From contig JAGOCP010000010.1 of assembly GCA_017998715.1 (NCBI GenBank), forward strand, positions 1 to 32,317: DNA of 32,317 nucleotides, read 5' to 3'. A program made the position numbers and the translations under genes. How positions within the stretch are numbered: the first letter of the stretch is position 1; every line of letters starts with the position of its first letter. This document shows positions 12,519 through 25,612 of the stretch, one piece after another. The notes beneath the pieces were generated by a model, which saw nothing but the letters and a program-made list of their open reading frames with translations, made no database searches and was not told the DNA's origin. The DNA is from Thermoanaerobaculia bacterium. Its GTDB lineage: Bacteria > Acidobacteriota > Thermoanaerobaculia > Multivoradales > JAGPDF01.

Positions 12519-12578
12519 CAAGCGCTTCAATGTTTTGCCCGAGCCTCCGGCGATTGCGGCAGCCTGTTGCGCCGCCTT

Positions 12579-12600
12579 GGACGGCGTGGCCACGCCGTCC
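12579..12600. promoter_or_regulatory. perfect 22-bp palindrome upstream of the ECF sigma gene
   Basis: The half-site GGACGGCGTGG is followed immediately by its exact reverse complement, with no spacer and no mismatch. The palindrome ends 23 bases before the sigma ATG and starts 60 bases after the TATAAT hexamer. It could be an operator for a dimeric regulator or a hairpin in the leader that includes the ribosome-binding region. No T-run follows, so a terminator is unlikely. Confidence 0.45.
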
Positions 12601-12623
12601 GTAGAAACGAATTGGAACCGGTC

Positions 12624-13280
12624 ATGCCAGAGTTGGTCTACTCCCAGAACCGCGAACGACTGAAGCTCGCCGAGCGCAGCGATCGGGAACTGCTCTGTCT
12701 GCTCCAGGCGGACGACGAGCTCGCGCTCGCCGAGCTCGTGGCACGGAAGACCCGGGCCCTGCTCCAGGTCACCGCGCGCATCGTGCGCGACGAAGAGGAG
12801 GCCCGGGACGTCGTGCAGGTCGCTTTCCTCAAGATCTGGGAGAGCCGGGCCAAGTACGACACGCGCTGGAGCCCCAATACCTGGATTTACCGCATTGCGA
12901 CCAATCTGGCGATCGATCACTGGCGCTCGCGCCGCTCGCGCGACCAGGCGTCCGAGCCGGTGCGCTTCCATCTCCTGCGCGCCTCGGAGAGCCACCCTAC
13001 CGGCGCCATGGCGGAGCTCAAGGAGGCCGAGGTCGAGCGCATCTTCATCGAGCTCGCCGCCGAGCTGACCGAGAAACAGCGCCTGATCTTCCTGCTCCGC
13101 GAAACCGAAGGTCTGGCCTCCGCCGAGGTGGCCGAGATCGCCGGCTGCGAAGAGTCGACCGTGCGCAACCATCTGTTCAACGCCCGCAAGATCCTGCGCC
13201 AGAAGCTCGTCGAGCGCTATCCCGAGTATGCGCGCCACGCTACCGCGGCGAAAGACTGCACCAGGGGGCTCGATCGATGA
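12624..13280 (+). CDS. ECF-type RNA polymerase sigma factor
   Basis: A 218-residue sigma-70-family protein with region 2 (about 20-95) and region 4 (about 140-200) and no region 3, as in ECF sigma factors. Region 2 contains DEEEARDVVQVAFLKIWES and WIYRIATNLAIDHWRSRR (promoter melting). Region 4 contains LTEKQRLIFLLRETEG and an HTH in SAEVAEIAGCEESTVRNHLFNARKIL. ATG 12624 starts the sigma homology within 20 residues; the frame is open upstream but crosses the palindrome, so I reject a longer start. The stop overlaps the anti-sigma ATG (ATGA). It heads the secretion/pilus operon and probably autoregulates it, which is inference from position. Confidence 0.92.
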   Translation: MPELVYSQNRERLKLAERSDRELLCLLQADDELALAELVARKTRALLQVTARIVRDEEEARDVVQVAFLKIWESRAKYDTRWSPNTWIYRIATNLAIDHWRSRRSRDQASEPVRFHLLRASESHPTGAMAELKEAEVERIFIELAAELTEKQRLIFLLRETEGLASAEVAEIAGCEESTVRNHLFNARKILRQKLVERYPEYARHATAAKDCTRGLDR

Positions 13281-13840
13281 CCTGTCCCGACTGGCGCACT
13301 CTCACCGCCGCCCGCGACGCCGATCCCGCGGCCGAGTCGCCGGCCTGGGAGGAGGCACGCCGCCACGCCGCCCACTGCGGCCGCTGCCGGGAGGCGGCGC
13401 TCGCGGCCGACCCGTTGCTGCTGTTCGCGCGCCTGCCCGAGCGCCAGGTCTCCGCCGACGAAATCGGCGACATGCAGTCGTCGGTGGCCGCGCTGCTGCG
13501 CGCCAGCCGCGTCGGTCCCGTCGGCCCCTTCTCCAAAGGCCGCGACCGCAGCACGCTGACCTTGCGCCGCGCCTTCGGCCGGCTCGGCGTCTTCCGCGTG
13601 GCGGCGGCGCTCGGCGTCTGCTCGCTGCTGGCGCTCTCTGGCGCGCCGCGTTCCCGCCCGGTCGAAGCCGGAATGTTCGCCGCCGGCGGCGCTCGGGCGG
13701 TGCAAGGGGAGCGCGCCGAGGAGCTTCTGCCGCTCGGTTCCGTCGTCGAAGAGCTCGATCGCCCGGGGGCCCGCATCTACGAGCTGCCGCAAGCCGACAT
13801 GGCGGTCGTGATGATCGTCGACGCGAGTCTGGATGTCTGA
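13277..13840 (+). CDS. putative zinc-motif anti-sigma factor, single-pass membrane
   Basis: A 187-residue protein translationally coupled to the ECF sigma gene. Its N-terminal domain has H-x3-C-x2-C (HAAHCGRC, about residues 31-38), the hallmark of zinc-binding anti-sigma (ZAS) domains. A single hydrophobic segment (VAAALGVCSLLALSGA, about 112-128) separates it from a short outer domain ending MAVVMIVDASLDV. By family logic it would sequester the sigma factor at the membrane and release it on a signal. The upstream neighbour and the topology both support this; the motif alone would be weak evidence. It overlaps the next gene by eight bases. Confidence 0.78.
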   Translation: MTCPDWRTLTAARDADPAAESPAWEEARRHAAHCGRCREAALAADPLLLFARLPERQVSADEIGDMQSSVAALLRASRVGPVGPFSKGRDRSTLTLRRAFGRLGVFRVAAALGVCSLLALSGAPRSRPVEAGMFAAGGARAVQGERAEELLPLGSVVEELDRPGARIYELPQADMAVVMIVDASLDV

Positions 13841-14732
13841 AACCCGTCCGCTGCCGCCAGCTCTGCGTGCCTGGATCTGTGCCGTGACGCTCGTTCTGGC
13901 GCCGGCCGGCTTCGCCATGGCTCAAACGTCTCAGACGTCCCAGACATCTCAGACGCCCCAGACAGCGCAGCCGGCGCCGACCCCGCCGACCACCAAACCG
14001 GCGCCCGCGGCGGCGACCGGGCCGGCGCCGACCGTGCCCCGCCTGCGTTCGCGACCGGCAGTTGCGCCGCCGGCCGCCGCGCCCGGTGAGGCCGGCGCGG
14101 TGCGCCTGATGGTCTTCAGCCTCGAGCGCCAGCCGGTCTTCGAGGCGCTCACCGTCGTCCGGCCGCTGCTCTCGGTGCAGGGGTCGGTCGAGCTCGATCC
14201 GAGCCACAACACGATCTCGGTGCGCGACAATCTCGCGGCGCTCTCTCGTGTGGCCACCGCCATCCGGGCCTTCGACCGCGAGAACCAGCCGGTCAAGATC
14301 GGGGTCTCGCTGATCCTCGCCCAGGTGGCGAAGATCTCGCCGGTTCGGCCGGACGTCGGCATCGAGCCGGACCTGCTCACCCGCCTGCGCCAGCTGATGC
14401 GCTTCAACACCTTTTCGCTGCTCGCGCACGGCGACATCACCAGCCGCGAAGGCGAGGCGGTGATCTACGAGATGGCGCAGGGCTATCGCCTGAGCTTCGA
14501 GCTCGGGACGGTCGGCAGCGACGGCAAGCGGATCCGGCTCGCCGACTTCCGCATGGTGCGCGCCCTGCCGGGCCAGTCGGAGAGCGAGCTCGTCCGCTCG
14601 GTGGTCAATCTCGGGCTCGACCAGCCGCTCATTCTCGGCCTGACCCGGGGCGAGGCCGCCGACCGCGCCCTGATGCTGGTGCTGCGCTTCCAGAACGCCG
14701 CGGTCCCGACGGCCACCACGGCGGAGCGGTAG
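13833..14732 (+). CDS. secreted NolW/secretin-like periplasmic protein, family not identified
   Basis: A 299-residue protein with a signal peptide (cleavage near residue 31, GFAMA-Q), then a low-complexity Thr/Gln/Pro/Ala linker to about residue 90. The folded part starts with a secretin N1/NolW-like segment (LERQPVFEALTVVRPLLSVQG, then HNTISVRDNLAALSRVATAIRAFD) and continues as a beta-rich region (FSLLAHGDITSREGEAVIYEM, RLSFELG, LVLRFQNA). It resembles a truncated secretin without the membrane-spanning core signature. Lying between the anti-sigma gene and the assembly genes, it may be a periplasmic accessory of the secretin channel. ATG 13833 overlaps the anti-sigma stop by eight bases. Secretin-domain similarity is by eye only. 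Confidence 0.6.
   Translation: MSETRPLPPALRAWICAVTLVLAPAGFAMAQTSQTSQTSQTPQTAQPAPTPPTTKPAPAAATGPAPTVPRLRSRPAVAPPAAAPGEAGAVRLMVFSLERQPVFEALTVVRPLLSVQGSVELDPSHNTISVRDNLAALSRVATAIRAFDRENQPVKIGVSLILAQVAKISPVRPDVGIEPDLLTRLRQLMRFNTFSLLAHGDITSREGEAVIYEMAQGYRLSFELGTVGSDGKRIRLADFRMVRALPGQSESELVRSVVNLGLDQPLILGLTRGEAADRALMLVLRFQNAAVPTATTAER
13923..13967 (+). repeat. 9-base tandem repeat in the secretin-like gene linker
   Basis: Five imperfect nine-base units (consensus CAGACGTCY) encode TSQ/TPQ triplets directly after the signal peptide. Gain or loss of a unit would keep the frame, so the repeat number may vary between strains. It is a coding microsatellite, not a CRISPR. Confidence 0.7.
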
Positions 14733-14735
14733 GCC

Positions 14736-15953
14736 GTGGAGTTCCTTTGTCATCTCGGGACGCCCGAGGGGCGCGTGGTGCGCGAGACCCGGGCCGCCGC
14801 GAACGAGGCGGTGCTTCGCGCCGAGCTCGAGCGCCAGGGCTTGAGGATCTTCGCCATCGAGCGCCGCATGGGCCTCTCCTCGGCGACCGAGCTGTGGGCC
14901 CGCATGCGCGGGCAGCGCAAGATCCCCTACAAGACGCTGCTGGTCTTCAACCAGGAGCTCGCCGCCCTGCTCAAGGCCGGGCTGCCCCTCCTGCAAGCGC
15001 TCAACCTGATGCTGGAGCGCATGCGCGAGCCGAACTTCCGCGAGATCCTGATCCAGGTCCGCGACCGGGTGCGCAGCGGCGAGGAGCTCTCCGACGCCTT
15101 CGGCTCCTTCGGCGCGGTCTTTCCGCCGCTCTACGCCGCGACGCTCAAGGCGGGCGAGCGCACCGGCGAGCTCGAGCAGGTGCTGCGCCGGTTCATCCGC
15201 TATCTCAAGCTGGTCATCGAGGCGAGGAAGCGCGTGGTCTCGGCGCTGGTCTACCCGGCGGTGCTCGTCGGGCTGTCGATCGCCATGCTCTTCGTCATGG
15301 CGATCTTCGTCATGCCTCGCTTCACCGTCTTCTACGACTCGATGGACATGGAGCTGCCGCTGCTGACGCGGATCACGCTCGGCGTCTCGCTCTTCCTGCG
15401 CGACAACATCGTGTTCATCCTCGCTGGCGGCATCGCCACGGCGGTCGTCTTCCGGCGCTGGGCGCGCACCGAAGCGGGCGCCGCGCGACTCGACCGCTGG
15501 CGGCTGCGCGTCCCGCTGCTCGGTCCGGTGCTGCACCTGTTCTCGCTCGGCGAGTATTGCCGCTCGCTCGCGACGCTGCTCGCCGGCGGCATGCCGCTGG
15601 TGCCCTCGATGGAGATCTCCGGGCGCGCGATCTCCAACCTTTACGTGCGCGCGAGGATCGCGCCCACGGTGCAGCAGGTGCGGGAAGGCAAGGCGCTGCA
15701 CGAGGCGCTCGACGGCACCGGCATCGTCACCGATCTGGCGATCGACATGGTCAAGGTCGGTGAGGCGACGGGCTCGCTCGACGTTATGCTCACCAACATC
15801 GCCGACTTCTTCGACGAAGAGGTCGAGCTCAGGATGCAGCGCATCCTTTCGCTGGTCGAGCCGCTGATGCTGGTGATCATGGGCGGCCTGGTGGCGGCGC
15901 TGCTGGTTTCGGTCTACATGCCGATGTTCAACGCCATGGGAGGCATCAATTGA
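14736..15953 (+). CDS. inner-membrane platform protein, type II secretion/type IV pilus GspF/PilC family
   Basis: A 405-residue protein of the usual GspF/PilC length with two T2SSF repeats (about 68-190 and 270-395). The first has LLVFNQELAALLKAGLPLLQALNLM and LKAGERTGELEQVL; the second repeats the pattern as LGEYCRSLATLLAGGMPLVPSMEI and VKVGEATGSLDVML. Three TM segments are visible (about 170-195, 218-240 and 375-400). It is the membrane platform that couples the ATPase to pilin assembly. GTG 14736 starts three bases after the previous stop. The order F then E is the reverse of the common E-F order. Confidence 0.93.
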   Translation: MEFLCHLGTPEGRVVRETRAAANEAVLRAELERQGLRIFAIERRMGLSSATELWARMRGQRKIPYKTLLVFNQELAALLKAGLPLLQALNLMLERMREPNFREILIQVRDRVRSGEELSDAFGSFGAVFPPLYAATLKAGERTGELEQVLRRFIRYLKLVIEARKRVVSALVYPAVLVGLSIAMLFVMAIFVMPRFTVFYDSMDMELPLLTRITLGVSLFLRDNIVFILAGGIATAVVFRRWARTEAGAARLDRWRLRVPLLGPVLHLFSLGEYCRSLATLLAGGMPLVPSMEISGRAISNLYVRARIAPTVQQVREGKALHEALDGTGIVTDLAIDMVKVGEATGSLDVMLTNIADFFDEEVELRMQRILSLVEPLMLVIMGGLVAALLVSVYMPMFNAMGGIN

Positions 15954-17596
15954 GCACCGTACCGCCGCCGCTGTCTCCGGGCGACAACCTCCTGGCAACC
16001 GACAGCGCCCTGCGCGCCGCCGACGAGCGTCGCGCCGTCGAAGCGCTCGCCGCGAGGCACGGTCTCGAGTTCGTCGATCTCGAGCACTTCCGGATCGACA
16101 ACGACCTCTTCCACACCATTCCGTTCGAGCTCATGCTGCGCTACGGCTTCATTCCGCAGGTGCAGCTCGCCGGCCGGATCGCGCTGGTGATGAAGGATCC
16201 GAAGGACGTCGAACGGCTCGACGAGCTCGAGCTCCTGCTCGGCCAGCCGGTCGAGGTGCGGGTCGGGGTTCCGTCGGCGATCGAGGAGATCCTGCAGAAG
16301 TCCGAGTCGACCCAGCGCGTGCTCGAAGAGGCGACGGAGGACTTCCGCATCCAGCTCGTGCAGGAGGACGACCAGGGCGAGGAGATCCTGTCGATCGACA
16401 GCATCACCGCCGACTCGTCGCCGGTGATCAAGCTCGTCGACTCGACCGTGTTCAACGCCATTCAGCGCCGCGCCTCCGACATCCACATCGAGTCGCGCGA
16501 CAACGAAGTGGTCATCAAGTACCGCATCGACGGCGTGCTCTACCAGGCGATGGAGCCGATCGACAAGCGCCATCACCAGACGATCATCAGCCGCATCAAG
16601 GTCATGTCCGAGCTCGACATCGCCGAGAAGCGCGTCCCCCAGGACGGTCGCTTCAAGCTGCGGCTCAAAGGGCGCACGATCGACTTCCGCGTCTCGATCA
16701 TGCCCTCGGTGCACGGCGAGGACTGCGTCATCCGTATCCTCGACAAGGAGTCGATGTCGGCGGAATTCTCGAATCTCCGGCTCGACATCCTCGGCTTCGA
16801 CGAAGACACCATGCGCAAGGTGCGCAAGTCGATCCGCGAGCCTTACGGCATGGTGCTGGTGACCGGCCCCACCGGCAGCGGCAAGACGACGACGCTCTAT
16901 GCCTGCCTGTCGGAGATCCAGTCGCCGGAAGACAAGATCATCACCATCGAGGATCCGGTCGAGTACCAGTTGAAGGGCATCACCCAGATTCCGGTCAACG
17001 AGAAGAAGGGCCTGACCTTCGCGCGCGGCCTGCGGTCGATCCTGCGCCACGACCCCGACAAGGTGATGATCGGCGAGATCCGCGACGAGGACACCGCCTC
17101 GATCGCCATCCAGTCGGCTCTCACCGGCCATCTGGTCTTCACCACCGTGCACGCCAACAACGTGGTCGACGTTCTGGGCCGGTTTCTCAACATGAAGGTG
17201 GACCTCTACAATTTCGTTTCGGCGTTGAACTGCGTGCTCGCCCAGCGGCTGGTGCGGCGGATCTGCCCGCACTGCCGGCGCGAGGCCGCGGTCTCGGCGC
17301 AGCTGCTCGAGGACTCGGGACTGTCGCCGGCGGTCTACGGCGACCACCCGTTCTTCGAGGGTGCGGGATGTCTGGAGTGCAACGGCACCGGCTTTCTCGG
17401 CCGCCTGGCGGTCTCGGAGTTGCTCGACCTCTCGGACCGTATCCGTGAGCTGATTCTGGAGAAGCGGCCCGGCTCGGAGATCAAGCGCGCGGCCAAAGAA
17501 GAGGGAATGCGGTTCCTGCGCGAATCGGCGCTCGAGAAGGCTCTGCAAGGACTGACGACGCTACGTGAGATCAATCGGTTTACCTTCGTGGATTGA
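15950..17596 (+). CDS. assembly ATPase, GspE/PilB family
   Basis: A 548-residue hexameric ATPase with a T2SSE-N-like N-domain (about 15-150) and the secretion ATPase core. Motifs are Walker A GPTGSGKTTTLY (from G306), Asp box IITIEDPVE (about 332-340), Walker B VMIGEIRDEDTA (about 372) and the His box LTGHLVFTTVHANN. The tetracysteine zinc module of extension ATPases is intact: CPHC at 439-442 and CLEC at 474-477. This marks a PilB/GspE extension ATPase rather than PilT. TTG 15950 overlaps the platform gene stop (TTGA) and follows GGGAGG by six bases. Confidence 0.95.
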   Translation: MSTVPPPLSPGDNLLATDSALRAADERRAVEALAARHGLEFVDLEHFRIDNDLFHTIPFELMLRYGFIPQVQLAGRIALVMKDPKDVERLDELELLLGQPVEVRVGVPSAIEEILQKSESTQRVLEEATEDFRIQLVQEDDQGEEILSIDSITADSSPVIKLVDSTVFNAIQRRASDIHIESRDNEVVIKYRIDGVLYQAMEPIDKRHHQTIISRIKVMSELDIAEKRVPQDGRFKLRLKGRTIDFRVSIMPSVHGEDCVIRILDKESMSAEFSNLRLDILGFDEDTMRKVRKSIREPYGMVLVTGPTGSGKTTTLYACLSEIQSPEDKIITIEDPVEYQLKGITQIPVNEKKGLTFARGLRSILRHDPDKVMIGEIRDEDTASIAIQSALTGHLVFTTVHANNVVDVLGRFLNMKVDLYNFVSALNCVLAQRLVRRICPHCRREAAVSAQLLEDSGLSPAVYGDHPFFEGAGCLECNGTGFLGRLAVSELLDLSDRIRELILEKRPGSEIKRAAKEEGMRFLRESALEKALQGLTTLREINRFTFVD

Positions 17597-18623
17597 ACGA
17601 GTCCTGGGCCTCGCGCCCAGGCCGGTGCCGCCCTACGTCTTCGCGGTGCGGCGGCGTGAGCTGCGCTTCGCTGCCTTCTCGCGATCGGCAGCCGGCGGAG
17701 CTGCGCTCGAGCTTGCCGAGTTCCATTCCCTGCCGCTCGCCGAGGGGCTCTTCGGCAGCGGGCCGCTGGGCGTGCCGGTCGCCGACGGCGACGGCCTGGC
17801 CGCGAGCCTCCGCCTGTTGGTCGGCCGCAGCGCGAAGCCGGTGCGCGAGGCCTCCGTCGTGCTGCCCGACGCCTGGACGCGCTCCATGGTGCTCGAGCTC
17901 GGCGACCTGCCGGAGGAGCCGGCGGCGCGCCTCGAAGTGCTGCGCTTCCGCATCAAGCGGATGGTGCCCTATCGCGTCGAAGACCTGCGCATCGAGGCCG
18001 TGCCGATCGGCCAGGCGACCCCGGCGCTCGCCGGCGGAGCGGCGCCTGCGGCTTCCGCCGTCACCGCCACCCCTGGCACCCCTGGCACCCCTACCGACGC
18101 CGCGCACTGTCTCGTCACCCTCGCCAACGCCGCGGTCTGCTCGGCGATCGAGGACGGCTTCGCGCGTTGCGGCATCCGCCTGGGGCAGCTCTCCGGAGCG
18201 ACGCTCGCGACGCTCCAGGCACTGCTGCGCAGCGACGCCGACGGCGCGCTCTTCGGGTTGGCACTGGTCGACGCCGACGGTTTCAGTCTCGTGCTCGTGC
18301 GCGCCGGGGTTCCCGTCGTCTGGCGCCAGAAGAGCTTCACCGAAGGTCTTTCGGATGCCGACCGGGCGCGCCTGCTGACCTCCGAGCTGCGCCTCACGCG
18401 CACGCTCCTGGGCGAGCGCTTCCCGGGCGAGACGCTCGCGGCGCTCTACCTCGCCGCACCGCGCGCCGTCGAGCCGTTCTGGCTGCAGGTGCTCGCCCAG
18501 GGTCTCGACTGCCAGCCGGCGCGCCTGCGGGTCGAACACCTGGGGCTCGCCGCCCCCGGAGTGGGCGACGCCGTGGTCGAGCTCGCGCCGCTCGCCGGCG
18601 CGGCCTCGCGGGAGGTCGCGTGA
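17565..18623 (+). CDS. pilM: PilM-like actin-fold assembly protein
   Basis: A 352-residue protein resembling divergent PilM/GspL-cytoplasmic-domain proteins. Visible blocks are YVFAVRRRELRFAAF (phosphate-1-like strand pair), VVLPDAWTRSMVLELGDLPE, LRFRIKRMVPYRVEDLRIEA, which is the most PilM-typical block, and later GLALVDADGFSLVLVRAGVPVVWRQ. The ATP-site glycines of canonical PilM are poorly conserved here. PilM links cytoplasmic machinery to PilN. GTG 17565 lies inside the ATPase gene, giving a 32-base overlap; no closer start reads well because the next in-frame candidate (about 17625) would remove the first strand. A Thr/Pro/Gly linker encoded by 9-base repeats interrupts the middle. Confidence 0.7.
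   Translation: MRSIGLPSWIERVLGLAPRPVPPYVFAVRRRELRFAAFSRSAAGGAALELAEFHSLPLAEGLFGSGPLGVPVADGDGLAASLRLLVGRSAKPVREASVVLPDAWTRSMVLELGDLPEEPAARLEVLRFRIKRMVPYRVEDLRIEAVPIGQATPALAGGAAPAASAVTATPGTPGTPTDAAHCLVTLANAAVCSAIEDGFARCGIRLGQLSGATLATLQALLRSDADGALFGLALVDADGFSLVLVRAGVPVVWRQKSFTEGLSDADRARLLTSELRLTRTLLGERFPGETLAALYLAAPRAVEPFWLQVLAQGLDCQPARLRVEHLGLAAPGVGDAVVELAPLAGAASREVA
18068..18094 (+). repeat. 9-base tandem repeat in pilM
   Basis: Two exact copies and one near copy of CACCCCTGG encode a TPG-TPG-TPT linker in the PilM-like protein. Repeat change would keep the frame. Confidence 0.75.
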
Positions 18624-19738
18624 GCCGGACGCGCTGGCAGGAGCCGAATCTCGCGCGCGCGCCGTTCGTCAACGAGCGCCCGGTGCGGCGCCTCGCGGTG
18701 ACGCTCTGGCTGCTGTTTGCGCTCGTCGGCGGCCTTGCGGCCTGGCAGGCGGTCGCCAGCCGGCAGGCGACCAGCGCCCGCCTCGCCGAGTTGGCGAGAC
18801 TCAACACCGAAGCGGCCGCCGCGCGCGAGCGCGCCGCGACGCTCGAGCGCGAGCTGCGTGGCGCCGATCTGCCGGCGCAGAACGAACGCACGGCGTTTCT
18901 CAACCGGCGGCTGGCCGAGCGCGCCTTCTCGTGGAGCCGTCTGCTCGAGAGCGTGACCGCGGTCATGCCGCGCGGCGTGCGTCTGGTGCGGCTGTCGCCG
19001 GAAGGGTTCGGCAGCGAGCAGCGCCGGGCCGGAATGCCCGTGCGGGCCGCCGCCACGACGCGCGTCGAGATGCGTGTCAGCGGCGAGGCCGAGGAGACCG
19101 AGGCGTTGCTCGAGTTCGTCGACCGGCTCTTCCAGCATCCGGCTTTCGATCAGCCGAATCTCGCGCGCGAATCCGAGCGCAAGGACTCGCGGATCCAGTT
19201 CGAGCTCGCCGTCGCCTACCTGCCGGAGGTCGCCGGCGACTCGGGCGCTGCGGCCAGCAGTGCTGTGGCCTCGAGCGCTGCGACGACGGCCGCGACGCCC
19301 GGCGCGCCGGCGGCGCCGCGGCCCGGGGAAACCGGCGGCACGGGGAGCCTCGCTGGCGCAGCCTCACCGCCCGCAGCTGCCGCCGGGCAGGCGAGCGTGG
19401 GTAAGGTGGTGGGTAGCGCCCCGCCGCCGGCCTCGGCCAAGGTCGGTTCGCCGCCAGCGGGCCGCTCGACCCCGGGGTCGCGCGCCGGTACTCCCACTTC
19501 CGCCTGGGAGGGCGGCGAGGATCCGGCATCTGAAGACAAGGCGGCGGAAGACAGGGCGGCCGAGGCCGCCAGCGCCGGCGGCCGGATCACGGGCAGGCCT
19601 GCCGGGGCGGTGCCGGCGATGGGCGGAGCGGCTGGCGGCGGCCTGCGGCCGGCGGCCGGGAGCGGCGCGCCGTTCCCCGGCAACGTCATGCCGACGCCGC
19701 TGCGACCCTACGCCTCGACGACCGGAGGTGGGCGATGA
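18620..19738 (+). CDS. pilN: PilN-like protein with long low-complexity tail
   Basis: A 372-residue bitopic membrane protein. It opens with NLARAPFVNERPVRRLAV, a PilN-like amphipathic start (PilM-binding in canonical PilN), followed by one TM segment (about 26-48), a coiled coil (about 50-92), and the PilN fold with FSWSRLLESVTAVMPRGVRLVRL and a strand-rich part to about residue 204. From about 205 to the end it is almost wholly Ala/Gly/Pro/Ser, unlike ordinary PilN of about 200 residues. GTG 18620 overlaps the PilM stop (GTGA) with GGAGG at 18611-18615. Longer in-frame starts upstream would lie in pilM and are rejected. Confidence 0.8.
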   Translation: MSRTRWQEPNLARAPFVNERPVRRLAVTLWLLFALVGGLAAWQAVASRQATSARLAELARLNTEAAAARERAATLERELRGADLPAQNERTAFLNRRLAERAFSWSRLLESVTAVMPRGVRLVRLSPEGFGSEQRRAGMPVRAAATTRVEMRVSGEAEETEALLEFVDRLFQHPAFDQPNLARESERKDSRIQFELAVAYLPEVAGDSGAAASSAVASSAATTAATPGAPAAPRPGETGGTGSLAGAASPPAAAAGQASVGKVVGSAPPPASAKVGSPPAGRSTPGSRAGTPTSAWEGGEDPASEDKAAEDRAAEAASAGGRITGRPAGAVPAMGGAAGGGLRPAAGSGAPFPGNVMPTPLRPYASTTGGGR

Positions 19739-20334
19739 GAGGTTCGTTCGGCCTCTGGCGCCGCCGCCTGTGGATATGGCTGCCGCCGGCCGTGGCGCTC
19801 GCCGCCGCGACCCTCTACCTGGTCTCCCTGGAGCGCGGTGTGCGGTCGCAGGGCGCGACGCTCGCCAGCCGCCTCGAGGTCGCTCAGCGCGAGCATGACC
19901 AGGCGTCGGCGGCGCTCGCGCGCCTCGATGCGCTCGACACCTCCGCCCGCGCGACGCGCGAACAGATGGCGCGGCTCATGGAGGAGAAGTTCGCCACCGA
20001 GAGCGGGCGGTTCACCAGTCTGGTGCGCGAGATCAAGCAGCTCGCCGAACACGCCGGTCTCGATCCCAGAGAGATCGGCTACCCCGAGGAGGCCTTTGCC
20101 GATCTCGGGCTCGTGCGGCGCTCCTTCGTCTTCACCGTCCAGGGGAGCTACGTCAATCTGCGCGCGTTCCTCTACCTGCTGGAGCTCTCGCCGTCGTACG
20201 TCACCGTCGACTCGATCGAGGTGCGCGAGCTCGCAGGCGCCAAGGGCCTGGGAGTCGATCTCCGCCTCTCGACCTTCTTCGCCGCGCCGCCGCCGGCGGC
20301 CGCCGCGCCTGCGGTGCCGGGAGGCCGGTCGTGA
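19735..20334 (+). CDS. pilO: PilO-like alignment-complex protein
   Basis: A 199-residue bitopic protein with a short basic N-terminus, TM at about 10-30, a coiled coil at about 35-95 (ATREQMARLMEEKFATESGRF), and a ferredoxin-like periplasmic domain with FVFTVQGSYVNLRAFLYLLELSPSYVTVDSIEV, typical of PilO. It ends with an Ala/Pro tail. PilO pairs with PilN in the inner-membrane alignment complex. ATG 19735 overlaps the PilN stop (ATGA). Confidence 0.8.
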   Translation: MRGSFGLWRRRLWIWLPPAVALAAATLYLVSLERGVRSQGATLASRLEVAQREHDQASAALARLDALDTSARATREQMARLMEEKFATESGRFTSLVREIKQLAEHAGLDPREIGYPEEAFADLGLVRRSFVFTVQGSYVNLRAFLYLLELSPSYVTVDSIEVRELAGAKGLGVDLRLSTFFAAPPPAAAAPAVPGGRS

Positions 20335-20966
20335 AGCTCGCGCCGCGGGAACGCAAGCTCCTGTCCGCGCTGGCTGTCCTGGGCGGCCTCGCGGTCTTGC
20401 GCTTTCTCTGGGTTCAGCTCACGCCGGCGGCGTTGCCGGCGGCCAAGCCGGTCGCGGCGGCGGCGCGCGGCGCTGGCGCCGCCGGAGCGACGAGCACGAG
20501 CTTCGGCAAGGGCACCCGCAGGGGCGTGGCCGAGCTGCCGCAGGAGATCGTCGAGCTCCAGCTCGCCGACCTCGAGGGTCAGCCGCGCGCCTTGACCGTC
20601 GGCCGCGACCCTTTCCGCTTCGGTCCAATGCCTCCTCCTCCTCCCCCGCCGCCACCCACCCGGGCGGAGCTCGAGGAGATGCGCCGGCAGGAGGAGTTGC
20701 GCCGGGAGGCCCAGGAAAGAGCGGCTCGCGAAGCGATGATCCCGCGGCCGCCGCCGGTCACCGTGGTCTATCTGGGAAGTTTCGGCCCGGAGCGGCGCCG
20801 CATCGCGGTGTTCGCCGACGACGCCGGCGAGAATCTCTACAATGTGCGCGTCGGCGAAGTCGTCGAAGGCAAATTCATCGTCGACCGGATCGGCTACGAG
20901 TCGGTCGACATCAAGTTCGTCGGTTTTCCCGACGAGCCGGCGAAGCGCTTGCCGATCGGGGGCTAG
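20331..20966 (+). CDS. PilP/GspC-like inner-membrane protein with polyproline linker
   Basis: A 211-residue protein with an N-terminal TM (about 10-30) and an Ala/Gly linker, then DPFRFGPM, typical of PilP-like linkers. Nine consecutive prolines (101-109) and a charged Glu/Arg helix (about 112-136) follow. The C-terminal domain (about 143-211) is a small beta module, VTVVYLGSFGPERRRIAVF with NLYNVRVGEVVEGKFIVDRIG, matching the GspC homology-region/PilP fold that contacts the secretin. GTG 20331 overlaps the PilO stop. PilP proteins are often lipoproteins; this one uses a TM anchor like GspC or MshK. Confidence 0.7.
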   Translation: MKLAPRERKLLSALAVLGGLAVLRFLWVQLTPAALPAAKPVAAAARGAGAAGATSTSFGKGTRRGVAELPQEIVELQLADLEGQPRALTVGRDPFRFGPMPPPPPPPPPTRAELEEMRRQEELRREAQERAAREAMIPRPPPVTVVYLGSFGPERRRIAVFADDAGENLYNVRVGEVVEGKFIVDRIGYESVDIKFVGFPDEPAKRLPIGG

Positions 20967-20985: not shown

Positions 20986-23532
20986 ATGAGTCGGGGAGTT
21001 CGAGCGGCCGGGGCGCTGCTCTTCGTGGCGCTCTGGGCGGCGACGTCCGGATGCGCGACCTATCGCCTCGCGCACCAGGCCTCGCTCGCCGAGGAGAACG
21101 CCGACTGGGATGCCGCGGTCGAGCACTATCTCGAGCTGGTCGAGCGTCAGCCCTCGAACGTGCGCTTCAAGACGGCGCTCCTGCGCGCCCGTCTCAAGGC
21201 TTCCCAGGAGCACTTCAGCAAGGGCCAGCGCTTCCGCGCCGCCGGCGTCCTCGAGCGCGCCCTGGTCGAGTTCCAGGAGGCCGTGCAGCTCGACTCGACG
21301 AACCAATATGCCCAGGTCGAGCTCGACCAGCTGCGCAGCGAGATGGCGAAGGCCGACCGCAACGGCAGCCAGCTGTCGCTCGAGGAGCTGAAGAAGAAGA
21401 CCCGCGACCAGCCGGCGCAGCCGCCGGTGCTCTCGCCGCGCTCGAAGGAGGCGATCTCGCTCGACTTCCCGAAGCCGGTGTCGATCTTCGACATCTACCG
21501 CGCGCTCGGCAAGGCCTTCGGCATCAACGTCCTCTTCGATCCGGCGCTCAAGGACCAGGACCTGGCGATCGAGTTGCGCGACGTCACGGCGCAGAACGCT
21601 CTCGAAACCCTGATGCGGGCGGCCGGGCATTTCTACAAGGTCGTCGACGAGCACTCGATCATCATCGCCGCCGACAATCCGCAGAATCGCAAGAACTACG
21701 AAGACCTGGTGATCCAGACCTTCTTCCTGTCGAACGCCGAGACCAAGGACGTTCTGACGCTGCTGCGCAGCCTCATCGGGGCGAAGAACATCGCCACCAA
21801 CGAGGAGCTGAACGCGATCACCATCCGCGACACCGCCGACAAGGTGAAGGTGGCGCAGCGGATGATCGAAGGCATCGACAAGTCGCGCTCGGAGGTCATC
21901 GTCGATGTCGAGCTGATCGAAGTCGATACCAACCGGATTCGCGAGATCGGCGTCAGCCTGTCGCAGAACCAGATCACCCAGACGCTCGACCTCGGCGAGG
22001 ATGCCAAGGTCCATCTCTCCGATCTCAAGTACCTGAATCAGAGCAGCTGGATCCTGACCATTCCGTCGATCATCTACGACTTCGTCAAGACCAACGCCGA
22101 CGCGCAGCTCCTCGCCAAGCCGCAGATCCGCATCAGCGAAGGCGAGAAGGGCAAGGTCCACATCGGCGACCGGGTGCCGATTCCGGTGACCAGCTTCAAC
22201 TCGGCGCAGACCTCGGGTGGCAACATCATCCCGATCACCTCCTTCCAGTACCAGGACGTCGGCATCAAGATCGACATCGAGCCGCGCGTGCACCACAACA
22301 AGGAGGTCACGCTCAAGCTGCAGATCGAGGTCAGCCAGATCACCGGCTATCAGGACGGCGGCGGCGGACAGAAGCAGCCGATCATCGGCACGCGGACCAT
22401 CGAGTCGACCATCCGGCTGAAGGACGGCGAGACCAACTTCCTCGCCGGCCTGATCCGCACCGACGAGGTCCAGGGCGAGACCGGCATTCCGGGTCTCTCG
22501 GACATTCCGATCATCGGCCGGCTGTTCGGCAAGTCGTCGAGCAACATCAAGCGCAGCGACGTCATGCTGACGCTGACGCCGCACATCATCCGCACGCCCG
22601 AGATCACCGAGGGCGATCTGATGCCGATCTGGGTCGGCACCGAGTCGAACATCTCGTTCCGCGGCGGTACGCCGCGCGTCGAGTCCGAGGCCGAAGGGCC
22701 GTTCGACGACGGACAGTCGAGCGCCGAGGCGGAGGAGAAGATCCGCGAGCAGGTTCAGCGCCTGCCGCGCGGTCTGCGCTCGGAAGGGGTCAACGGGTCG
22801 GGCCCGGCCGCGGCGGAGCCGTTCCCGGGAGTGAACCTCGCTCCCGGCGGCGCGCCGTCGAACCCGTTCGCGACGCCGCAGAAAAAGCCGGAGCCGATGG
22901 ACGAAGAGAACCCGGACAACGGTTCGGCGAGCTTCGACACGCCCCCGCCCAGCGGCACGCCGCTCGACCTCATCGCCACGTCGGCGGCGGGTTCGACCGG
23001 GTCCGGCAGCGCTCGTCTGCGGATGCTGCCGAAGTCGGTCGAGATCCTGCCGGGCGCGAGCTTCGAGATGTCGGTCGAGATCGCGACGACCGCGCCGGTG
23101 GCGCACGTGCCGATGACTCTTTCCTGGGATCCCGCGCTACTCGCGCTCGAGCGGGTGGTGGCGGGTGACTTTCTCGGCAGCGGCAAGAACGCCGGGTTCG
23201 TGAGCGACGCCTCCACGCCCGGCGAGCTGGAGCTCTCGGCCGACCGTGTGGCGGGCGCTTCGGGTGTCGCCGGTCACGGCGCCCTGGCGCGTCTCGTCTT
23301 CCGCGCCCTGGGCGAAGGCGTCGCTCTCGTCACGATCGCGGCATCGCATGTCGAGGACGCCGAGCGCTACGAGCTCGCGACGGTCGCGGCGGCGCCGAGC
23401 GAGGTCGTGATCCGCACGCCGGACGACTCCGGCCTGACGCTGCTCGAAACCGTCGAGCCGATCGCTGCGGGCGCGGCGGGCGATGCGGACGATTCGAACG
23501 TTCCGGTTCCCGCTCCGGGCGGGGGTTCATGA
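20986..23532 (+). CDS. lipoprotein secretin with N-terminal TPR-like and C-terminal cohesin-like domains
   Basis: An 848-residue outer-membrane secretin. A lipobox-like ATSGC (Cys23) ends the signal peptide. Residues about 24-130 are helical TPR-like repeats (DWDAAVEHYLELVERQPSN, then RAAGVLERALVEFQEAVQLD). An STN/N0 domain spans about 157-235, NolW/N1 about 238-310, and the secretin core about 310-540. The secretin signature is TNFLAGLIRTDEVQGETG and IPGLSDIPIIGRLFG, starting near residue 482. A Pro/Ser/Asn-rich linker (about 545-672) leads to a beta-rich cohesin-like domain (about 675-810): ILPGASFEMSVEI, VPMTLSWDPALLALERVVAGDFL and ALARLVFRALGEG. ATG 20986 follows GGGAG by eight bases; TTG 20968 is a weaker alternative. 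The secretin call is certain; the cohesin call is good by pattern but needs a profile search. Confidence 0.93.
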   Translation: MSRGVRAAGALLFVALWAATSGCATYRLAHQASLAEENADWDAAVEHYLELVERQPSNVRFKTALLRARLKASQEHFSKGQRFRAAGVLERALVEFQEAVQLDSTNQYAQVELDQLRSEMAKADRNGSQLSLEELKKKTRDQPAQPPVLSPRSKEAISLDFPKPVSIFDIYRALGKAFGINVLFDPALKDQDLAIELRDVTAQNALETLMRAAGHFYKVVDEHSIIIAADNPQNRKNYEDLVIQTFFLSNAETKDVLTLLRSLIGAKNIATNEELNAITIRDTADKVKVAQRMIEGIDKSRSEVIVDVELIEVDTNRIREIGVSLSQNQITQTLDLGEDAKVHLSDLKYLNQSSWILTIPSIIYDFVKTNADAQLLAKPQIRISEGEKGKVHIGDRVPIPVTSFNSAQTSGGNIIPITSFQYQDVGIKIDIEPRVHHNKEVTLKLQIEVSQITGYQDGGGGQKQPIIGTRTIESTIRLKDGETNFLAGLIRTDEVQGETGIPGLSDIPIIGRLFGKSSSNIKRSDVMLTLTPHIIRTPEITEGDLMPIWVGTESNISFRGGTPRVESEAEGPFDDGQSSAEAEEKIREQVQRLPRGLRSEGVNGSGPAAAEPFPGVNLAPGGAPSNPFATPQKKPEPMDEENPDNGSASFDTPPPSGTPLDLIATSAAGSTGSGSARLRMLPKSVEILPGASFEMSVEIATTAPVAHVPMTLSWDPALLALERVVAGDFLGSGKNAGFVSDASTPGELELSADRVAGASGVAGHGALARLVFRALGEGVALVTIAASHVEDAERYELATVAAAPSEVVIRTPDDSGLTLLETVEPIAAGAAGDADDSNVPVPAPGGGS

Positions 23533-23984
23533 AGTCGAGCCGCGGCTTCACCCTGACCGAGCTGCTGATCGTCTGCGCCGTGCTTTCGATCCTCGCCGGG
23601 GTGACTTTTCCGACTGTCAAGTACACGCGCAAGCGGATGAAGGAGATCGAATTGCACGCTCAGTTGCGCGAGATGCGGGCGGCGATCGACGAGTTCAAGA
23701 GGTACAGCGACGCCGGCTTCCTGGCGATCGAGTTCGGCACGGACGGCTATCCGAAGGATCTCGAGACGCTCGTCGAGGGCGTCGACGTCATCGGCCAGAT
23801 CGACAAGAAGGCGCGCTTTCTGCGCCGCATCGGGGTCGATCCGATGACCGGCGACGACGAGTGGGGCCTGCGCAGCTATCAGGACGAGCCCGACTCCTCG
23901 AGCTGGGGCGGGGAGAACGTCTACGACGTCTATTCGCTCTCCGCCGGCACGGGACTGAACGGGATCCCGTACTCGCAATGGTGA
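23529..23984 (+). CDS. type II pseudopilin (GspG-like), first of three
   Basis: A 151-residue prepilin with a short basic leader and the class III cleavage motif G-FTLTE (Glu at mature +5), then a hydrophobic helix (LLIVCAVLSILAGVTFP). The globular part has YPKDLETLVEG and VDPMTGDDEWGL, the C-terminal region of GspG-type pseudopilins where the calcium-binding loop lies. It ends YSQW. ATG 23529 overlaps the secretin stop by four bases. It is probably processed by a prepilin peptidase encoded elsewhere. Confidence 0.9.
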   Translation: MKSSRGFTLTELLIVCAVLSILAGVTFPTVKYTRKRMKEIELHAQLREMRAAIDEFKRYSDAGFLAIEFGTDGYPKDLETLVEGVDVIGQIDKKARFLRRIGVDPMTGDDEWGLRSYQDEPDSSSWGGENVYDVYSLSAGTGLNGIPYSQW

Positions 23985-24400
23985 CCACGAAGCGGCAGGG
24001 CGGCTTCACGCTGCTCGAGCTGATCATCGTCATCGCGATCATCGGCATCCTGGCGACGATCGCCATGCCGGCGCTGAAAGACATGCCGCGGCGGGCGAAC
24101 GAGGCGGTGTTGAAGACCAACCTGCGCACCATCCGCGACCTCATCGATCAGTACTACGGCGACCAGGGCCACTATCCCGAGAGCCTCGAAGTGCTGGTCG
24201 AAAAGGGCTACGCGCGGCAGGTGCCCTACGATCCTCTGACCAAGAGCTTCGAGAGCTGGAAGCTCGTCTTCGAAGAGCCGGATCTGCTGGCCGAGCCGGC
24301 GGAGACCGATCTGCCCGAAGGGGGCGAGCCGGGGATCATCGACGTGCGATCCGGTTCGCCGCTGATCTCGCTCGATGGCACTCCCTATGCCGACTGGTAG
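23978..24400 (+). CDS. type II pseudopilin (GspG-like), second of three
   Basis: A 140-residue prepilin with leader MVTTKRQGG, the cleavage motif G-FTLLE with Glu+5, and the helix LIIVIAIIGILATIAMPAL. The globular part has DQYYGDQGHYPESLEVLVEKGYARQVPYDPLTKSFESW, close to the GspG consensus, and ends YADW. It is the best candidate for the major pseudopilin by motif quality. ATG 23978 overlaps the preceding gene by seven bases; GTG 23981 is possible. Confidence 0.9.
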   Translation: MVTTKRQGGFTLLELIIVIAIIGILATIAMPALKDMPRRANEAVLKTNLRTIRDLIDQYYGDQGHYPESLEVLVEKGYARQVPYDPLTKSFESWKLVFEEPDLLAEPAETDLPEGGEPGIIDVRSGSPLISLDGTPYADW

Positions 24401-25154
24401 CCCGCCGGCGAGCGGCGGCGGCAGTCCCAAGGCGAACGGCTACAGCCTCGTCATGGTGGTGATGATCATCACCGTCATGAACATCGTCGTCGCCATCGCC
24501 CTGCCGCTGTGGAGCGGCATGATCAAGCGCGACAAGGAAGAGGAGCTGATCTCGCGCGGCCTGCAGTACGCCGAGGCGATCCGCGTCTTCCAGCGCCGTT
24601 TCGGGCGCCTGCCGGTGCAGCTCGACGAGCTGGTCAAAGTCGAGCCGCGCTCGATCCGCCGCCTGTGGGAGGACCCGATGACCGGCAAGGCCGACTGGAT
24701 CGTGATCCTCGAGGGCACGCCGCAAGGCGGGCCGGTCATCGACCCGGGCACCGGCGAACCGATCCCGCAGCCGGGGGATCCGAATCCGCAGACGCCTCCC
24801 GGCACCGCGGACGGCGAGCCGCCGCCGCAGCCGATCGGCCCGATCCGCGGCGTGCGCAGCCGGGCGACCGGCGAGGCGTTCCACGTCTTCCTCGACCAGA
24901 CCGAGATCGGCAGCTGGGAGTTCCGCTCCGACATCTTCAGCCGCTTCCGCACCGCGCCGTCGGAGAACGGCATTCCCCGCGTCTCGGCGCTCACCCTCGG
25001 GCGGCCGTTCCGTTACGCCACTCCGGGAAGTCCGCAGAACCCGTCCGGCCTGCCGATGACGCCGCCCGGCGTGCCGGGCTCGCCGCCCGTGGGCAAGCCG
25101 AAGTTGCGCTCGCAGGCCGACAGCGCACCGCCGTCGTCGGAGAAGCAGCGCTGA
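24387..25154 (+). CDS. non-canonical pseudopilin-like protein, third of three
   Basis: About 255 residues. After a Gly/Pro/Ser-rich leader comes [26 protein letters not shown], which has the position and helix of a pilin but Met instead of Glu at mature +5. The globular start [37 protein letters not shown] and [13 protein letters not shown] align with the same block in the two upstream pseudopilins. A Pro/Gly-rich insert (about 116-150) and a Pro-rich tail follow. Loss of Glu+5 is a known trait of GspK-type tip pseudopilins. Neither ATG 24387 nor ATG 24375 has a clear Shine-Dalgarno; I prefer the shorter overlap (14 bases). Confidence 0.78.
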
Positions 25155-25612
25155 TGGCCGACGCCGCGCCGGTCGTGCGCGTCCGGCGTTGGCCGCACGC
25201 CGGCGACCTGCCGTTGCCGGAGCCGGCGACCGCCGGCAGTGCCGGCGCCGATCTGCGTGCAGCGGTGGGCGAGGAGGTCGTGCTCGCGCCCGGAGGGCGG
25301 GCTCTGGTGCCCACCGGCTTCAGCCTCGAGATCCCCGCCGGCTGGGAGGGTCAGGTGCGGCCGCGCAGCGGGCTCGCGGCCCGGTTCGGCGTCACCCTGC
25401 TCAACTCGCCTGGCACCATCGACAGCGACTATCGCGGTGAAGTGCAGGTGCTGCTGATCAATCTCGGCGCCGAGCCGTTCGTCGTGCGGCGCGGCGAGCG
25501 TATTGCGCAGCTCCTGATCGCGCCTTCGCCGCGCGTTCGTTTCGTCGAAGTCGACGAGCTCCCGGCGAGCGCGCGCGGCGCCGGCGGATTCGGCTCGACC
25601 GGCCGGGGCTGA
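25154..25612 (+). CDS. dut: dUTP diphosphatase
   Basis: A 152-residue trimeric dUTPase with all five motifs in order: [44 protein letters not shown] with the catalytic Asp, [12 protein letters not shown], and [12 protein letters not shown]. It hydrolyses dUTP to dUMP and pyrophosphate, keeping uracil out of DNA and feeding dTMP synthesis. ATG 25154 shares one base with the last pseudopilin stop, so it is the distal gene of the assembly operon although functionally unrelated. It converges with the minus-strand operon, 22 bases apart. Confidence 0.97.

Follow-up and report, generated by a model that had tools for sequence, protein, structure and literature searches.

The envelope partners known for ECF sigma factors come in few forms, represented by RseB, the FecA-type receptors and VreA. 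RseB binds RseA (PMC8103513), the signalling domain of FoxA protects FoxR from proteolysis (PMC11637429) and secretin/TonB-type domains make part of the contact in PupR/PupB (PMC7186176). VreA is described as a soluble, probably periplasmic STN-domain protein that is the partner of an ECF sigma factor and is encoded beside the Hxc type II genes; overproduction of the ECF sigma factor VreI in Pseudomonas aeruginosa raises several of these neighbouring Hxc type II genes (PMC2729926). A comparable layout occurs in the window studied here, i.e. the whole 32,317-nt stretch of contig JAGOCP010000010.1 from a Thermoanaerobaculia bacterium, where a predicted secretin-derived gene is the third of an operon that begins with the genes of an ECF sigma factor and of an anti-sigma factor. 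With a probability of about 0.62, the encoded protein acts in the periplasm as the third component of a switch made up with an ECF sigma factor and a membrane anti-sigma factor.

The features of this locus lie on the + strand. The sigma gene (12624..13280, with ATG 12624 as the assumed start codon) is syntenic in relatives and matches PF04542 (1.1e-15) and PF08281 (4e-13). It is followed at 13277..13840 by a membrane anti-sigma factor, recognized by its position, the motif Hx3Cx2C (HAAHCGRC) and one hydrophobic segment. Its short outer tail has the end ARIYELPQADMAVVMIVDASLDV, and no Pfam or NCBIfam match was obtained for the protein, the FecR-type periplasmic domain included. The third gene begins within the end of the anti-sigma gene, with an overlap of 8 bp. 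This gene, read from an ATG, occupies 13833..14732, exactly where the earlier note had placed an ORF between the anti-sigma and assembly genes, and encodes a protein of 299 aa that is predicted to be exported. Its stop is separated by 3 nt from the start of GspF (14736..15953; PF00482, 1.4e-54), and the genes, overlapping or nearly abutting, run on into the secretion genes. These comprise GspE (15950..17596; PF00437, 8e-129), an ORF with a PilN/GspL-like domain whose true start is probably later (18167..19738; PF05137, 8.8e-4, below cut-off), a GspM-like gene (19735..20334; PF10741, 0.0017, below cut-off; NF040576, 9e-4), a GspC/PilP-like gene assigned by position and synteny only, with no family match (20331..20966), the full secretin GspD (20986..23532, in an ORF from 20842; PF00263, 1.2e-41; PF03958, 2.3e-8) and two pseudopilins (23529..24400; PF07963, 5e-8 and 7e-9). 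The reading frame is doubtful for the ORF 17593-18375 and for the beginning of 18167-19735. The operon GspD starts with a lipobox-like sequence (ATSGC), contains TPR repeats and has a cohesin domain at its C-terminus (PF00963, 2.4e-7); behind the secretion genes, the ORF at 24509-25612 encodes a dUTPase domain (PF00692).

The architecture that had been read from the letters, namely a signal peptide, a TSQ-repeat linker, a NolW-like segment and a beta-rich, secretin-like part devoid of the core signature, is borne out in the 299-aa protein. The signal peptide, judged by eye, covers about aa 1-30 (13833..13922), with cleavage placed at MSETRPLPPALRAWICAVTLVLAPAGFAMA/Q. Behind it lies an unconserved TSQ/Pro/Ala linker (13923..14087) that differs in relatives; the TSQ repeat itself, at about aa 32-46, is missing from the protein of another species of the same genus, hence the linker is variable, and a functional role of the repeat was discarded for want of conservation. 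A Secretin_N domain (N1/N3, KH-like) extends over 14088..14282, as supported by PF03958, by comparison of the AlphaFold2 (AF2) model with XcpQ N1 and by hhalign. In the window protein the PF03958 match (aa 94-150, E=3.7e-4) is below the Pfam cut-off, and the GspD family TIGR02517 matches aa 83-161 at 8.5e-8; PF03958 is matched by all 35 members of an order-level alignment that includes the window, at best with 7e-11. The remainder (14283..14729) corresponds, according to AF2, VIA and hhalign, to a stripped secretin-core domain without membrane hairpins or lip. PF00263 is absent among the eight families matched at E 1 by any of the 35 members. In a motif scan, the VGGL-type turn occurs in 0/64 relatives versus 33/34 GspD proteins, and the lip motif PxLGxxPxxGxLF in 0/64 versus 17/34. 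Secretin_N is the sole Pfam family given for the protein in scans of the window and of the 35 members, with neither a MucB_RseB domain nor an STN domain (PF07660), and no N0 domain was matched.

Structure prediction points in the same direction. The AF2 model of the protein, built with 35 relatives, has a pLDDT of 90.6, and Foldseek returns for the whole model 32 matches at E <=0.001 (best 8.8e-8), all of them secretin or secretin-complex chains by title. In VIA comparisons the modelled N-domain superimposes on XcpQ N1 over 66 residues at 1.4 A (Z 11.8); with the whole model, secretins align at Z 8.0-10.4 over 167-188 residues (rmsd 6.7-9.4 A). The core domain modelled by itself from 50 sequences (pLDDT 92.3) gives 25 best VIA rows that are all secretins, with Z from 11.3 to 8.3, the next and unrelated entry scoring 7.8. 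These alignments span 116-125 residues at 3.4-5.2 A, and the 149 residues of the domain stretch over spans of about 230-320 residues of the secretins; the core-domain model contains no further strands, i.e. no membrane hairpins or gate. A Foldseek search with the core domain by itself retrieved nothing at E 0.001, and no secretin is named among the 50 rows listed. Comparison by hhalign with the local GspD profile yields E 7e-6 for the N-domain, and for the core domain a score of 31.1 and an E of 0.0021 with a probability of only 13.6, versus 19.0 for reversed GspD, at most 16.3 for eight column shuffles and at most 15.1 for ten other operon genes. The secretin identity of the core domain thus rests on VIA, on whole-model Foldseek and on a modest profile comparison. 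By prediction, the protein derives from one secretin N-domain plus a core that lost its membrane hairpins and its gate and lip loops; as modelled, it looks like a secretin core that would form no pore of known kind.

Linkage of this gene to the sigma gene was followed in 131 loci, a subset of the hits drawn from among the matches listed: the window, 20, 26 and 80 loci from homology searches, and four (L136-L139) reached via GspD. A single genus supplies eleven of them (L048, L049, L181-L189), and in another eleven entries (L222-L225, L227, L228, L160, L166-L168 and L226) the profile is matched by the first part only. An ECF sigma gene is present upstream, on the same strand and within 3 kb, in 121 of the 131 loci from the matches listed; merely 290-933 bp of sequence lie upstream in the ten others. 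For loci from the matches listed that have at least 1 kb upstream the frequency is 119/119, versus 0/20 for a control of true secretins given by the same search as N-domain-only matches, so the co-occurrence with the sigma gene that the earlier note had raised is strongly supported in this sample. Remote paralogues chosen on homology alone have the sigma gene upstream in 18/20 cases, the other two starting at or near a contig edge. In all 20 loci from the window's own order, sigma, the secretin-derived gene, GspF and GspE are found by tblastn in this sequence. The anti-sigma gene is found by tblastn in 19 of them and in the 20th by profile only; after GspE come GspL/M/C/D-like genes and pseudopilins, some contigs ending early. 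The widest gap occurs in L098 (7209-10686), where the sigma gene lies 2.3 kb upstream and the ORF between the two genes has 303 aa.

A middle ORF accompanies the sigma gene in 121/121 sigma-bearing loci; 110 of these ORFs have a hydrophobic segment and 95 the motif Hx3Cx2C, features for which the ORF was itself selected. The outer tails of these 110 anti-sigma-like proteins have a median length of 62 residues, and 91 of them contain a strand-like motif, defined after inspection of the tails, compared with a mean of 31 and a maximum of 45 after shuffling. Strand-like tails recur in many of these proteins, for instance VVMIVDESLDV, IRIIWL and QVVWFFDKNF (L149-L168 and others). In ten loci (L137-L139, L213-L217, L220, L221) the middle ORF has only 97-124 aa and one hydrophobic stretch, with the zinc motif missing, and is possibly a minimal anti-sigma factor.

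The relation to the secretion operon is looser. Among the 42 loci where gspF is not the next gene, two end right behind the secretin-derived gene and were left aside; of the 40 with downstream room, 22 belong to the paralogue class, and several of the genomes concerned carry a secretion operon elsewhere. In all 11 loci where the gene stands apart from the secretion operon, the sigma gene is kept. A set of 20 wider loci shows the secretion operon after the gene except in L083, L084, L087, L088, L089 and L100, where it is followed instead by a gene for OMP decarboxylase or a FadL-like protein or by genes of no clear family. Conversely, where the trio is detached, the secretion operons of seven genomes lie elsewhere and begin at gspF, with no trio in the stretch examined (L129-L135), and neither sigma nor the secretin-derived gene occurs in the stretches examined of the operons L141 and L142 and of the gspD locus L140. 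In one trio-bearing genome, no GspD was seen at E 1e-30 among the matches listed.

By layout, the protein resembles the VreA, PupB, FoxA and RseB systems; by domain tests it is a member of none. As in VreA-VreI-VreR (PUMA3; PMC2729926), an ECF sigma factor and its membrane regulator are accompanied by a soluble, probably periplasmic partner whose N-domain belongs to the secretin superfamily, and both cases adjoin type II secretion genes (Hxc there). In the Vre system, however, the gene order is unlike the sigma/anti-sigma/secretin-derived trio, VreA combines STN with a predicted TolA/TonB-like C-domain whereas Secretin_N (N1 type) is here joined to a stripped core, and VreR has a large periplasmic part whereas the tail of the window-type anti-sigma factor has about 60 residues. 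With FecI-FecR-FecA, FoxA-FoxR and PupB-PupR the trio shares a sigma factor, a membrane anti-sigma factor and an envelope partner, in systems where a secretin/TonB N-domain touches the anti-sigma factor; unlike FecA-type receptors, the secretin-derived protein has no beta-barrel, plug, TonB box or STN match, and unlike FecR the window anti-sigma factor has no FecR-type domain match. The gene order of rpoE-rseA-rseB is the same, i.e. sigma, single-pass anti-sigma and exported partner, but Pfam scans give the protein no RseB/MucB family match. Membership in the STN/FecA-type or RseB-type families was ruled out on these missing matches. GspD, PilQ and InvG have, by prediction, the same N-domain and core strand order; they differ in that the secretin-derived protein lacks matches to PF00263 and to an N0 domain as well as the VGGL and lip motifs, and its model is without membrane hairpins.

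A predicted ECF-type promoter, TTGGAC-N17-CGTA (12577..12603, + strand), ends 20 nt before the assumed sigma ATG. Inside it, at 12579-12600, lies the perfect 22-bp palindrome GGACGGCGTGGCCACGCCGTCC, which is not kept in the other species of the genus. When all pairs of spaced words were counted in the sequences preceding 108 sigma genes, TAGAC-N17-CGTA turned up in 38 of them; in one shuffled set no pair exceeded 7. The expression T[AG]GAC-N17-CGTA was formulated on the same sequences once these counts were known; it precedes the sigma gene in 58 of 117 cases, versus 0.2 expected from shuffles, which control composition only. It is found in 51/80 secretion-linked loci, 7/17 unlinked orthologues and 0/20 paralogues, for respective expectations of 0.2, 0 and 0; nine of the loci (L181-L189), from one genus, have near-identical promoters. 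The paralogues must rely on different promoters or do without a promoter of this type. With a promoter-like site in front of sigma in roughly half of the loci, the operon is probably self-activating. A match on the gspF strand was found in 0/7 of the separated secretion operons, and therefore control of secretion is not general. One secretion operon with no trio in the stretch examined (L141, about 3894) has a promoter-like match 784 nt upstream of the gspF frame. Scanning 12 genomes gave 173 matches versus 154 for a control pattern, with counts above control in eight genomes and below in four. The largest excesses (22 versus 7 and 21 versus 12) come from two genomes of one genus, and the window's own genome has 8 matches versus 14. 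Of 20 sites inspected, 18 fall inside stop-to-stop frames of at least 270 aa; one of the two sites outside such frames, in L296 (about 2001), lies 56 nt before a secreted-protein-like ORF. No wider regulon was resolved by this 12-genome scan, and none is claimed, the excess being slight and most inspected sites being in long frames.

Collectively, adjacency to the sigma gene across paralogues, retention of sigma in loci detached from the secretion genes, and the promoter-like site indicate that the gene is a component of an ECF switch; most likely it belongs to this sigma/anti-sigma switch and not to the adjoining secretion channel. The protein is most likely a periplasmic anti-sigma partner made of secretin parts and RseB- or VreA-like in action, its binding, signal and direction of control being inferred. 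It would bind the anti-sigma factor at the short outer tail and, once docked, would shield the factor from proteolysis or otherwise set its activity; a periplasmic cue would make it release or change shape, and sigma would be freed. In the branch of the window, where the genes run with overlaps into those for secretion, the switch would thereby set the amount of secretion apparatus made, and a plausible cue there would be an imbalance of secretin or pseudopilus parts. Reporting of the channel state may apply in the window's own order, where secretion genes come next in 20/20 loci. It is tempting to go further and to propose that a distinct signalling class of hairpin-less periplasmic ECF sensors, spread across the phylum, evolved from secretin subunits; its secretion-linked branch would mimic the secretin N1-core surface and inform its own anti-sigma factor of secretin that is jammed or not assembled; this extension is tentative and, on present grounds, doubtful.

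The earlier note had hesitated between a periplasmic cap, a gate modulator and a sensor tied to the anti-sigma factor. The link to sigma and anti-sigma stands (119/119 versus 0/20), while the cap and gate proposals lose ground in view of the loci without an adjoining secretion operon, an occurrence that the note had itself named as counter-evidence. A type II secretin accessory (cap, gate modulator or N-domain ring extender) that merely shares an operon with regulators would account for the secretin-derived fold, for the position of gspF directly downstream in 89 of the 131 loci from the matches listed, and for evolutionary rates that correlate best with GspF. The partial r over 34 loci is 0.49 for GspF, compared with 0.31 for GspM, 0.28 for sigma, 0.27 for the anti-sigma factor and 0.25 for GspD; the rates of the protein thus track the anti-sigma factor no more than other operon genes and do not discriminate. 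An accessory of this sort is distinctly improbable, however, given that 36 of the 40 loci with downstream room and no gspF next retain sigma, and given the secretion loci whose examined stretches show no copy of the gene, the seven separate operons as well as L140-L142.

The protein could also be an output of the switch, i.e. a sigma-induced effector of periplasmic stress without anti-sigma action, such as a protein holding secretin-like or outer-membrane subunits that are not assembled. Secretin N-domains act as assembly surfaces, which would suit such a holder, as would an operon whose promoter-like site is common to the sigma genes; adjacency to sigma across paralogues with differing downstream genes is, by contrast, probably commoner for regulators than for a single common effector, and we consider an output role unlikely. 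The missing core sequence signature might finally suggest a decayed, functionless copy of a secretin, but full-length frames, invariant columns in many families of the phylum and a fixed gene order leave this a negligible chance, and it was dismissed on conservation. The preferred reading therefore remains a periplasmic partner of the anti-sigma factor. It would represent a case of a pore protein remade into a soluble regulator and suggests how a secretion operon may come under the control of a protein related to the channel it encodes; the conserved promoter-like site makes the targets of the switch testable.

Homologues are widespread in the phylum. A match was obtained in 54 of the 59 genomes searched in the set of relatives, and full-length relatives extend, among the matches listed, across many families. 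Sampling of phyla beyond its own was limited to a single scan with an exact DNA pattern and to the first protein scan, the latter confirming no relative in them. The pattern scan returned 28 stretches, 23 with acidobacterial titles (several Thermoanaerobaculia), three titled 'uncultured bacterium', one from Mesorhizobium, where a relative is unconfirmed, and one labelled Deltaproteobacteria. Literature queries combining Acidobacteriota, type II secretion, anti-sigma and secretin, or PF03958 and sigma factor, gave no description resembling the family in the titles and abstracts listed, ECF re-classification work being outside their scope. A secretin-derived partner with several paralogues would give the Acidobacteriota, abundant and hard to culture, a readable signalling family. 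One paralogue class (L149, L151, L153, L159, L161, L164) lies behind sigma genes, without gspF next, and has the shared end GETVV[VL]GTS...AL[VI][VI]LLTA. At the other extreme, a very diverged copy in a genome of 2 Mb (L136, 2911-3561) keeps the full gene order.
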